DNA from: Methanooceanicella nereidis
GTDB lineage: Archaea; Halobacteriota; Methanocellia; Methanocellales; Methanocellaceae
Direction: 5' to 3'
Assembly (NCBI RefSeq): GCF_021023085.1
Contig: NZ_PGCK01000006.1
Coordinates: 124,001 to 188,000, forward strand
DNA: 64,000 bases
This document shows positions 13,709 through 59,029 of this stretch, piece after piece (within the stretch, counting starts at the first letter, position 1; each line of letters opens with the position of its first letter). A program made the position numbers and the translations under genes. The notes below the pieces were generated by a model that saw nothing but the letters and a program-made list of their open reading frames with translations, had not been told where the DNA came from and did no database searches.

Positions 13709-13798
13709 TATAGCGATTAAAGTTTATCGCGCGCGATCATTTTTATCGGAGAATTATTAGTCTATTGGTGATCTTACATACTACAAAGAATAATATAG

Positions 13799-13842
13799 AC
13801 CACAGTTTTTCACCACGAAGTACACAAGGGCAACAAAGGAAC
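13799..13842 (+). repeat. Outer flanking repeat (TTCACCACGAAGTACAC type), left side
   Basis: This begins CCACAGTTTTTCACCACGAA and continues with AGTACACAAGGGCAAC. It is inverted and nearly repeated at 14619-14665, so the pair encloses the whole element around the 14-kb palindrome. Related forms occur near 36.2, 39.1, 40.9 and 41.7 kb. It is non-coding. Confidence 0.7.
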
Positions 13843-13986
13843 ACGAAGGATTTTTAGAAGTTTAATATATACTTAAAAAAATTGTGGACCCTAGTTACCC
13901 TTGTGTACTCCCATGAAAAACTTTTAGATGTCATTGTAAAGACGTGCATATAACAATTCATTACGGGATTGATGTTCTGCCGTTGT

Positions 13987-14515
13987 GCCTGTCGGATGGC
14001 AGGTAGGCACGTAACCTCACAGAAACACAGAACCACAAAATTTTTTTAGAATTTAAGATCGCGAAATCTCTAAAGTTCACTCACTAAACCACAAAGGGCT
14101 CCAGTATCACCGTCAACGCACTAACACCTCTAACGCCCGGCTCAACGCTCGAAGTGCTCTAAGTCACCAACTCTAAAACAAGACACGAACATTCCCAAAA
14201 ACACTAAATTTTAACTGCACGGTTGACGCTTACACGATCGATATCCCTGCCATAGGTCAGGAGAACACAGACCGGGATATTAAACTTTAGTGATTTGGAG
14301 AATGTTCGGGCCTTGTTTTAGAGTTGGTGACTCTGAGAGGTTAGTGCGTTGAGCCGGGCGTTAGAGGTGTTAGTGCGTTGACGGTGATACTGGAGCCCTT
14401 TGTGGTTTAGTGAGTAAACTCTTAGGGTTTTTGTGCCCTTAAAAAATCATATAAAAAATTTTTGTGGTTCTGTGTTTCTGTGAGGTTACGTGCCTACCTG
14501 CCATCCGACAGGCAT
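13987..14515. repeat. Long palindromic element, copy 1
   Basis: The left arm (about 13987-14215) and the right arm (about 14282-14515) are near-perfect reverse complements, with a central loop of about 65 bases. Matching blocks include GTCGGATGGCAGGTAGGCAC with its complement at 14490-14509, GGGCTCCAGTATCACC with GGTGATACTGGAGCCC, and CGCCCGGCTCAACG with CGTTGAGCCGGGCG. There is no long frame or transposase. If transcribed, it would fold into a hairpin of roughly 230 bp. It lies in the convergent gap between proX and alaX. A second copy is at 41029-41569, and the two arms of each copy carry the same copy-specific changes. Confidence 0.9.
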
Positions 14516-14618
14516 AGCCATAAAAACATTATCTCAAAGACCATTGAGTAAGACACATTTTCATTCTTAAAACCTGAGCAAGACCCCGCTCATCAAAGAT
14601 TTCGTGGTTAAGCTAGTG

Positions 14619-14665
14619 AACCTTAATTACCCTTGTGTACTTCGTGGTGAAAAATAGTGGACCTT
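14619..14665 (+). repeat. Outer flanking repeat, right side
   Basis: This inverted counterpart of the repeat at 13799-13842 reads CCTTGTGTACTTCGTGGTGA followed by AAAATAGTGGACC. Between it and the palindrome lies a block (TTAAAACCTGAGCAAGACC, then ATCAAAGATTTCGTGGT) that is also present right of the 41-kb copy. The element is therefore longer than its palindromic core. Confidence 0.7.
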
Positions 14666-14679
14666 TTATCCCTTTGTAG

Positions 14680-15885
14680 TTAACTTGCTATGTCTTTTTT
14701 GTCATCATGTATACTAAGACTGGATGCAAGGCCATTTAAAAATTCTGCGAAATTTTTCATATCGTTTACATCATTGAATCCTGCGTTAGCCCATTTATCG
14801 CTACCGCCGCCCTTTCCCTTAAATTCGGCGAGATGATCCTTGAATACCTTACCGCAATTAATTACGAATGCTCCGCTATGAGCGAATAGCAGCCTTTTAT
14901 CAGGGATGGATGATAGCACAAGTATAAAATCGCCGTTCTGAAGTATATATTTTGCAAGAAGGCTGATCTCGTCGGCTTTTTTATCCTCGAGATCCATACG
15001 GATGACTTTTGATCTCGCTAAACCGGCGATCCCCTTTGCTTCCAGGGCAAGCGTTTTTTCCTTTAGATCAGAAAGCTCCTTCTGCAGGCTTTTTAGCTGT
15101 GCCATCATAGACTCGCTCCTCGCCGGTATCTCGCCCTCTGACGTGCGATATAGCCTGGACAGTGCCGACACTATCGCATGTTTATCCTGGTAGTCCCGGA
15201 GCGCCCTCATTCCGCATTTAAAATAGATACGGGTCTGGTTCCGCATCTTTTCAGCCTTCAGGACTTTTATGATACCCACTTCCCCGGTCCTTGTAACATG
15301 TGTGCCGCAGCAGGGAGAGAAATCAATGTTGTCTATCTCCACTATCCTGATGACATCATCCCTGGGAGGAGCCTTGCGAAGAGGGAAATCACTGGCTCCC
15401 TCGGGAGATACGAAATGGGCTTTTACGATCAGGTCCCGGTAAATGTATCCATTCGCCTTGTCCTCTATCGTTTTTAAGAGTTCTCCGGAAATGTCGGACA
15501 GAGAGATATCAATGGAAACCTCATCATCCCCCAGATGGAAACTTGAAGTCTCCCCGCCGTAAAGATCAAAGACCGATGATAGTATATGCTGGCCCGTATG
15601 CTGCTGAGTCAGGTCCCGCCTTCGCACAATGTCTATGGCGCATTTAACGATCCGGTTTTGCGGCTTCCTGTTTAAAACATGATATATCTCGCCGTCTTTT
15701 TCATAGACTTCTTCGACCGCTATGCCGTCGATGTTCCCGCTGTCCGCTGGCTGTCCGCCGCCCCCCGGATAGAAGGCGGTTTCTGACAGGATGATAAGAA
15801 ATTTTTCATCCTTTTCGATAATCTCTTTTACCTCTGCCTGCCACTCAGCCATATACGGCGACCCATAATACAACCGGCGTTCCAT
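14680..15885 (-). CDS. alaX: Alanyl-tRNA editing protein AlaX, long form with DHHA1
   Basis: This is a trans-editing enzyme that hydrolyses Ser or Gly wrongly attached to tRNA-Ala. The N-terminal beta-barrel carries ETAFYPGGGGQPADSG (about 35-50). The editing domain has the zinc ligands HTGQH (96-100) and CCGTH (192-196). The C-terminal part, after a coiled coil (about 240-290), is a DHHA1 domain ending KGKGGGSDKWANAGF, which binds the tRNA elbow or aids dimerisation. At 401 residues it is the AlaX-L class, normal for archaea. All zinc ligands are present. It is monocistronic or leads a short minus-strand run, and ends next to the repeat element. Confidence 0.93.
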   Translation of the reverse strand: MERRLYYGSPYMAEWQAEVKEIIEKDEKFLIILSETAFYPGGGGQPADSGNIDGIAVEEVYEKDGEIYHVLNRKPQNRIVKCAIDIVRRRDLTQQHTGQHILSSVFDLYGGETSSFHLGDDEVSIDISLSDISGELLKTIEDKANGYIYRDLIVKAHFVSPEGASDFPLRKAPPRDDVIRIVEIDNIDFSPCCGTHVTRTGEVGIIKVLKAEKMRNQTRIYFKCGMRALRDYQDKHAIVSALSRLYRTSEGEIPARSESMMAQLKSLQKELSDLKEKTLALEAKGIAGLARSKVIRMDLEDKKADEISLLAKYILQNGDFILVLSSIPDKRLLFAHSGAFVINCGKVFKDHLAEFKGKGGGSDKWANAGFNDVNDMKNFAEFLNGLASSLSIHDDKKDIAS

Positions 15886-40634: not shown

Positions 40635-40928
40635 GTATACACGCCTTCAATTCTCCGAAGAAATGATATTATAAAAGATTTTTATTAGCATTCTTTGATT
40701 AATAAGCTTTACCATAACAGTTTACTTATGAGACCGTTAATGGTCATATCGTTCCATACGGCAAGTATCGCGGCGGTCGTAGTGACTGTTATATATGGTC
40801 CTGAAAAGCTCTTCCGAAAAGCTTAAGGGTTTTGTATTGCTCGCGCATAGAACATATTAGAACCTCGGGTGCTCTGTCCCGCAGCTTCTTAAATAAATAG
40901 GTCATTTCATCTTTGATCAACTCCACCA

Positions 40929-40975
40929 TAAAGGCAACAAAGGAACACAAGCATAACCACATAAGACACAAAGGC
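40929..40975 (+). repeat. Outer flank repeat, left of palindrome copy 2
   Basis: CATAAAGGCAACAAAGGAAC followed by ACAAGCATAACCACATAAGA resembles the left flank of copy 1 (GGGCAACAAAGGAACACGAA). It is more diverged than the 14-kb version. Confidence 0.5.
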
Positions 40976-41028
40976 GATCAAGTAATACATTTAGTTATTC
41001 GGCTTTTTTGGGATGTTGTTTTTTGTGT

Positions 41029-41569
41029 TGTTCCTTTCGGATGGCAGGCGGACACATAACCTCACAAAAACACGGAACCACAAAAATTTTTCAGATTTTA
41101 AGGGCACTAAAGCTCTAAAGGTTCGCTCACCAAATCACAAAGGCTCTAGTATCACCGTCAACGCACCAACGTCTCAAACGCTCGACTCAACGCTCGAAGC
41201 GCACTAAGTCACTAACGCTAAAACAAGACACGAATCTCCCCAAACCACGAAATTTTAAACCCCGGTTTGTGTTGTACCTGATTGATCCTCATATCCGGTA
41301 TGCTTCAGTCGATCCATACGTCAACCGCGTTATTAAACTTTGGTGGTTTTGGGAAGGTTCGTGTCTTGTTTTAGCGTTAGTGGATTTGGGAATTTAGTGC
41401 GTTGAGTCGAGCGTTTGAGACCTTAGTGCGTTGACGGTGATACTAGAGCTTTAGTGGTTTCGTGAGTAAGTTTTTGGTGCTTTTGAGACCTTAAAAAATA
41501 ATATAAAAATTTTAGTGTTTCCATGTTTTTGTGAGGTTATGTGTCCGCCTGCCATCCGGAAGGAATAAC
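41029..41569. repeat. Long palindromic element, copy 2
   Basis: The left arm (about 41029-41255) and the right arm (about 41330-41569) are reverse complements around a loop of about 75 bases. Paired blocks include TTCGGATGGCAGGCGGACAC with its complement near 41542-41560, GGCTCTAGTATCACC with GGTGATACTAGAGC, and CGCTCGACTCAACG with CGTTGAGTCGAGCG. The family is the same as at 13987-14515, with different base pairs at matched positions and an unrelated loop. No protein is encoded. It lies between the end of the Ca2+-ATPase gene and the start of the DHA2 exporter gene, both on the minus strand. Confidence 0.9.
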
Positions 41570-41705
41570 CTAAAAAACTTCATTCCAATGATCGGGGAGG
41601 AACAATAAGTTTCTCCATCCTTAAAACCCGAGCAAGAACCCCCACATCAAAGATTTCATGGTGATAAACCGTGTTCCCTCGTTGCCTTAGTGGTGAAATA
41701 GAAGA
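41570..41705 (+). repeat. Right flank of palindrome copy 2
   Basis: CATCCTTAAAACCCGAGCAA followed by CATCAAAGATTTCATGGT matches the block right of copy 1 (14560-14620), and GTTGCCTTAGTGGTGAAATA is the diverged outer repeat. This shows that both elements share flanks beyond the palindrome. Confidence 0.65.
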
Positions 41706-58654: not shown

Positions 58655-58739
58655 GCGGGGGTTGCCAAGCCAGGTCAAAGGCGCAGGATTGAGGGTCCTG
58701 TTTCGTAGGAATTCGCGAGTTCGAATCTCGTCCCCCGCA
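58655..58739 (+). tRNA. tRNA-Leu, anticodon GAG
   Basis: The acceptor stem GCGGGGG (58655-58661) pairs with CCCCCGC (58732-58738). The anticodon arm is CAGGA-TTGAGGG-TCCTG, giving anticodon GAG (decodes CTC/CTT). A long variable arm follows, then the T arm GCGAG-TTCGAAT-CTCGT. Length 85, with discriminator A and no encoded CCA. The long variable arm is as expected for class II tRNA-Leu. A decayed copy of the same length is at 61724-61808. Confidence 0.95.
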
Positions 58740-59029
58740 CTACTGCTCTTGTATTTTAACGTTTTTTGCTGTCCATGTTCTTATGAAACTGCCAGACTTA
58801 AAGGCATTTATTTGCCTCAGTCAGGTGTACATAGGTCATAGTATTCTGTGCTCCCGGGGCCAGGCCGGGGGATATATCCTTACATAATGTTGCCCGGGTG
58901 CTCGACCGCGTTTGGCGAGCCCTCCGGGTTCTCCAGATAAATGTACGTACTCCGAGCCATAATAGAATAAATTGGGTTCTCGATGTTAATTTGTAACTTT
59001 TATATGGTTAAAGGTAGTATGGGTAAGTT
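58740..59029 (+). other. Left end of the tRNA-Leu-bracketed cassette
   Basis: There is no gene. It contains AGGCATTTATTTGCCT, a short dyad, and G+C-rich stretches around 58850-58940 unlike the neighbouring spacers. TTTTATATGG (58997-59006) is a TATA candidate about 25 bases before the TrmB start, which would make that message leaderless. Confidence 0.45.

Follow-up and report, generated by a model that had tools for sequence, protein, structure and literature searches.

Two long palindromes of a Methanocellaceae genome belong to a high-copy hairpin family whose fuller members carry a GxxExxY gene in the loop

In a 64,000-nucleotide stretch of the Methanooceanicella nereidis genome (the window), two long palindromes, here labelled W1 and W2, proved to be members of a large family of hairpin elements, the fuller members of which carry a single ORF for a GxxExxY protein in the loop. 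We consider it probable that W1 and W2, which lack an ORF, are MITE-like derivatives of a mobile hairpin, and that the GxxExxY protein encoded in the loop of the full form, a predicted PD-(D/E)XK nuclease, would mobilise both forms. The family membership of W1 and W2 is well supported and the mobility of the hairpin elements is supported; that the nuclease is the driver of the movement is what we infer. A description of the two palindromes made earlier from the window's letters (the sequence-only reading) had missed both the family and its members with a nuclease ORF in the loop.

In both palindromes the arms measure about 240 bp and enclose a loop of roughly 50 bp (Table 1). That they are long palindromes of one family, as first described, is borne out, the arm complementarity being 88–98% in W1 and 82–88% in W2. 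The extents originally given (13987–14515 and 41029–41569) were near, and are corrected here to the cores listed in the table; weaker inverted similarity is present outside both cores. The RNA folding energy is -374.7 kcal/mol (z -47) for W1 and -301.6 kcal/mol (z -27) for W2. The neighbours of W1 are an OpuAC-domain gene and a gene resembling those for alanyl-tRNA editing; W2 lies between genes for an MFS transporter and a P-type ATPase. We agree that there is no transposase in either, since no transposase ORF lies inside W1 or W2. The loops had been taken to be unrelated; instead, end modules are common to the short loops and the ORF-bearing loops. The end module of the W1 loop, ATATCCCGGTCTGTGTT in the minus-strand reading, spans the loop/arm boundary and is also found in ORF-bearing loops, while the start module of the ORF-bearing loops, ATATCCCGGTYTGTGTT, is that of the short ones. 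The octamers GTTRTGCC/GGCAYAAC were considered as exact termini of the W family, and were dropped because the inverted similarity runs about 45 bp further out. When the window was compared with Rfam, no RNA family matched the palindromes and the sole match was a tRNA-Leu; this gene, tRNA-Leu (GAG), is single and lies at 58655–58740.

Table 1. Coordinates in the window of W1, W2 and the repeats and flanks that surround them
Feature	Position	Strand	Remarks
W1 core palindromic hairpin element	13982..14518	+	loop-forward on + strand; GTTGTGCC...GGCATAGC
W1 left arm	13982..14223	+	
W1 loop	14224..14270	+	conserved in most copies
W1 right arm	14271..14518	-	
W1 outer inverted repeat, left	13780..13844	+	includes CACCACGAAGTACACAAGGGCAACAAAGGAACAC, which resembles closely the 40-bp unit in the arms of the GxxExxY element L116
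W1 outer inverted repeat, right	14616..14680	-	
W1 left flank	13845..13981	+	common to 20-32 of 41 sampled copies, varying by position
W1 right flank	14519..14615	+	common to about 32 of the 41 copies sampled
W2 core palindromic hairpin element	41027..41569	-	loop-forward on - strand; GTTGTTCC...GGAATAAC
W2 left arm	41027..41266	+	
W2 loop	41267..41323	-	inverted relative to the shared flank, compared with W1
W2 right arm	41324..41569	-	
Weaker inverted similarity beyond W2 core	41008..41588	.	
W2 outer arm motif, left	40924..40957	+	CACCATAAAGGCAACAAAGGAACACAAGC; by eye
W2 outer arm motif, right	41670..41697	-	CGTGTTCCCTCGTTGCCTTAGTGGTG; by eye

The copies were studied as genome stretches taken around each one. 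In the source genome (G000; 3.19 Mb in 41 contigs), a degenerate, 21-base arm-end pattern gave 146 matches against 0 for a reversed control pattern, and therefore about 73 copies are present, the elements making up about 1.2% of the genome. The finished chromosome of M. paludicola contains at least 40 short palindromes which are 70–74% similar over 110–140 bp; diverged copies in such number on a finished chromosome show that the family is no assembly artefact. The family does break the G000 assembly; contigs C2, C3, C5, C7, C8, C13, C16 and C18 end inside copies or within a few hundred bases of them. The copies are intergenic and prefer convergent gene pairs, with 23 convergent versus 7 divergent in G000, and 14 versus 3 among the short palindromes of M. 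paludicola. The orientation of the loop is independent of the neighbouring genes (13 versus 10 in tandem contexts). Since 44 copies have common flanks, a larger composite may account for much of the amplification. For the W family, whose outer limits are uncertain, we found neither a target-site duplication, looked for around 16 copies without shared flanks, nor a clean empty site; the search for empty sites via plasmid carriage yielded 7 plasmid records only. A viral origin was rejected, there being 1 match among 2.9 million viral contigs.

Only three of the approximately 73 G000 copies (L096, L100 and L101) bear an ORF in the loop. Their loops are about 540 bp in length, with one ORF each, and their arms are as in the short copies; W1 and W2 have no ORF and share arms and loop ends with them. 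The ORF is intact in L101, where it specifies 136 amino acids, and its product is a GxxExxY protein (Pfam PF13366, PDDEXK_3, E-value=2.6e-34; NCBIfam TIGR04256, E-value=4.7e-36). To our knowledge this is a common family with no assigned function. When the structure predicted for a GxxExxY protein from bacteria (pLDDT 96.8) was compared with the PDB, the best fold matches were PD-(D/E)XK nucleases, all of them weak (best E-value=7e-3), in the order Cas4-like SSO0001, lambda-type exonucleases, an archaeal Holliday-junction resolvase and a homing endonuclease domain. With the PD-(D/E)XK homing endonucleases and Holliday-junction resolvases the protein thus has in common the nuclease fold of its predicted structure; it differs in that these fold matches are weak and that a search of the PDB by sequence found no solved relative of GxxExxY.

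In total, about 18 GxxExxY genes were located in four Methanocellaceae genomes, about 15 of which lie inside long inverted repeats with arms mostly of 85–290 bp. A 644-bp GxxExxY element of M. paludicola is present at two unrelated sites with 98.6% identity. On one side the two sites cease to be homologous at the repeat end, and on the other they do so no more than about 15 bp from it. A second family in the same organism has three copies with the ends GTTATGCC...GGCATAAC. The 644-bp and the three-copy elements look like recent transpositions. Target-site duplication was not visible around three M. paludicola elements. The two 644-bp copies (L136 at 491293 and L138 at 1948142) have few differences, which cluster in one arm of L138, with the ORF and the other arm almost unchanged. 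No ORF-bearing copy with arms matching the short palindromes of M. paludicola was found in that genome.

The arms of the G000 GxxExxY elements L116 (987–2110; C12) and L126 (1259–2192; C2) consist of tandem 40- and 43-bp units. The arrays of L116 hold about eight units on the left and five on the right, which are near-identical within an arm and different between arms. The outer inverted repeat of W1 resembles such an arm unit almost letter for letter, and W2 is flanked, as judged by eye, by the outer-repeat motif of W1. The presence of this GxxExxY arm unit around both palindromes makes it probable that a further hairpin of this class contains W1 and W2, either as nested elements or as parts of itself.

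The sequences show that arms have recombined with one another. Of the 44 copies that could be classified, 16, among them W2, have an interior inverted with respect to the flanks they share, and the arms are mosaics of common haplotype blocks. Thus, of the arm homogenisation by strand-switching or foldback gene conversion which the sequence-only reading had put forward, exchange between arms does occur, but homogenisation within each copy is not the rule. At one G000 site (L222; C15:38077–38245) no more than about 28 bp from the ends of the palindrome are left between the shared flanks; either almost the whole palindrome was lost, as slippage at the base of the hairpin would bring about, or the assembly is at fault here. 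The flipped interiors, the mosaic arms, the arrays of 40-bp units within arms and, if it is not an artefact, the loss at L222 are what might be seen if there were no dedicated mobility and if arms and copies arose and persisted through template switching during replication, through slippage and through ectopic recombination at palindromes, their position between genes making them tolerable. We regard this as very unlikely, since discrete elements with 98.6% identity sit at unrelated sites in M. paludicola, the copies are dispersed and number about 73, and such hairpins recur with a conserved nuclease ORF.

The arms of the two palindromes had also been said to have changed in concert, which holds for the W1/W2 pair and fails as a general behaviour of the family. 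There are 16 sites at which both W1 arms differ jointly from both W2 arms. When foreign 3' arms were substituted, 5.5 +/- 2.9 joint differences were expected, with a maximum of 16 in 5000 draws, and the original observation is therefore real for this pair; the arms of W1 or W2 are mismatched at 50 of 229 sites. Over 62 copies, the identity between a copy's own arms was 0.843 compared with 0.839 for shuffled arms (sd 0.0028, z about 1.4). In the same 62 copies the inner arms agreed no better than shuffled ones (z -0.6), and the outer 50 bp agreed far above them (z 7.8). Beside the outer 50 bp, a few columns co-vary strongly, and in some inner columns mismatch within a copy is commoner than chance. 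Arm differences that fail to match within further copies had been named as the sign of a chance pattern; in 27 copies of M. paludicola the own arms agreed at 0.794 versus 0.800 for shuffled arms, with no excess. General concerted evolution of the arms is contradicted by these shuffling tests in two genomes. In the arm tree, the two arms of a copy are never sister tips, and most of the clades with better support contain A arms only or B arms only. Both arms of W2 and of five related copies group in a clade of their own, at a weak support of 0.37 and with A and B arms separate within it, which is consistent with W2 being a member of a separate subfamily whose arms differ jointly from those of W1. 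Taken together, the shuffling results and the arm tree lead us to regard the matched differences between W1 and W2 as mainly subfamily differences, to which the true co-variation of the terminal 50 bp is added.

Selection for an RNA hairpin, the other proposal of the sequence-only reading, was not upheld. Such selection is expected to tolerate G.U mismatches and not A.C. On the loop-forward strand, the arm mismatches comprised 537 of G.U type versus 569 of A.C type in G000, and 154 versus 294 in G002, and transversion mismatches outnumber either type. Since G.U is not favoured over A.C, it is unlikely that RNA pairing is the selected trait. A structured non-coding RNA or source of double-stranded RNA, with compensatory changes keeping the arms paired, would be in keeping with the very stable predicted hairpins of W1 and W2, with the strong co-variation of the outer 50 bp and a few columns, and with the bacterial GxxExxY hairpins, which mostly point in the direction of transcription where they lie between tandem genes (33 versus 7). 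It seems to us improbable all the same, because inner-arm co-variation is not above shuffling and is altogether lacking in M. paludicola, several columns mismatch above chance, transversion mismatches are many and G.U is not in excess. Nor is there an Rfam match, or a link between loop orientation and the adjacent genes in the tandem contexts given above.

The gene-in-hairpin design recurs across many bacterial phyla. Eighty GxxExxY loci were sampled from these, 63 of which were testable for inverted repeats; the collection scan used a four-sequence GxxExxY alignment, a broader one being too diverse. Of the 63 loci, 36 are enclosed by an inverted repeat that scores at least 35 bits, compared with 0 of 489 windows shifted along the same contigs, and cross-locus pairs, the control for GxxExxY flanks, gave 2.2%. 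The bacterial arms follow a grammar in which TTCACC precedes 8–9-nt units like ACACAGAG. Where GxxExxY lies between two tandem genes, it has the same direction as both in 33 of 40 cases. In two genomes of Alphaproteobacteria (L160 and L189), a sense GxxExxY hairpin is located between apparent carA and carB genes, identified by eye from their translated ends. Bacteroides finegoldii has a GxxExxY hairpin (L284, 2427–2905) between radA and the gene for a FAD protein; at this site in other Bacteroidales (L299, L286 and L287) there was one decayed hairpin with different arms, and none in two. Presence and absence are both seen at the radA/FAD site, the flanks being too diverged for exact junctions.

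This recurrence also bears on a further alternative, namely that an unseen transposase, unrelated to GxxExxY, moves the palindromes as foldback MITEs, with the GxxExxY ORF as a passenger. High copy number, terminal repeats, intergenic sites and the preference for convergent gene pairs all agree with it. We nevertheless think it unlikely, for the loop ORF is always GxxExxY, and its recurrence in unrelated hairpins of four Methanocellaceae and of many bacterial phyla is not expected of a passenger.

A second protein family is found in similar surroundings. PF05635 four-helix-bundle genes are present, often many, in 26 of 30 GxxExxY-bearing genomes, and 14 of the 28 PF05635 loci tested lie in inverted repeats versus 3 of 756 cross pairs. 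The repeat unit tends to be locus-specific and yet common to both arms, which may mean that copying between the two arms takes place in the course of the element's life cycle. At the PF05635 loci outside rRNA (L254–L283), the arms consist of tandem 7–9-mers (GTTACGGA, GGTAAACA, TATAGGG and others), again locus-specific. No rRNA motif strings were found at the GxxExxY loci.

As a mechanism, we propose that the GxxExxY nuclease would recognise or act on the extruded cruciform or hairpin (DNA, possibly RNA) formed by its own arms, and that its action would set off recombination or copying that places the element at a new site. The enzyme would act in trans on copies that lack the ORF, W1 and W2 among them, and would mobilise the ORF-bearing copies too. 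Recombination within and between copies, together with the founding of subfamilies, would keep the arms similar, and the need for both ends to fit a single enzyme would explain why the terminal 50 bp of the two arms co-vary. The concerted differences between W1 and W2 would then be mainly differences of subfamily, with no ongoing process in each copy.

W1 and W2 fit the known description of MITE-like foldback elements, and there is a real chance that the wider hairpin class is new. Like MITEs and foldback elements, they are short, dispersed, ORF-less and of high copy number, with inverted repeats over nearly their whole length, and they are probably derivatives of a longer ORF-bearing element whose copies have the same termini. 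They differ in that there is no known transposase and that the full-length partner of the W family encodes GxxExxY; we know of no transposon which this partner matches. A target-site duplication was not seen either, the outer boundary of the W family being uncertain. With REPs and BIMEs they have in common that they are intergenic palindromes in many copies, but REPs measure 20–40 bp (PMC3733652) and the W-family cores about 540 bp. The sequence-only reading knew of no named family with such behaviour, and none was found in the open-access literature either, where nothing was found on GxxExxY in hairpins or on its arm motif.

The 23S rRNA intervening sequences (IVS), for example of Coxiella burnetii, are stem-loops with an S23/four-helix-bundle ORF in the loop, the protein being PF05635, and are described as selfish and of unclear origin (PMC4990558). 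They resemble the GxxExxY hairpins in having an inverted-repeat stem and one small loop ORF, and their hairpin design is also that of the PF05635 genes outside rRNA. IVS are insertions in 23S rRNA that RNase III excises, whereas the W1/W2 family lies between protein genes. The loop ORF is an S23 four-helix bundle in the former and a PF13366 PD-(D/E)XK nuclease in the latter, and the W family reaches about 73 copies per genome.

Tentatively, and with slightly more doubt than conviction, we suggest that all of these may belong to a widespread, undescribed class of selfish 'loop-gene hairpins' in bacteria and archaea, with loop genes for two small proteins that are unrelated to each other, GxxExxY and the four-helix bundle, and arms made of short repeat units. 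The 23S IVS would be its rRNA-dwelling branch, and archaeal palindromes like W1 and W2 its non-autonomous, amplified form. If this is true, the GxxExxY and IVS protein families would gain a common lifestyle, in the loops of mobile hairpins, and the ACCACAGAGACACAGAG-like repeats beside GxxExxY and PF05635 genes in many genomes would be explained. The nature of the IVS, an old question, would become directly testable.
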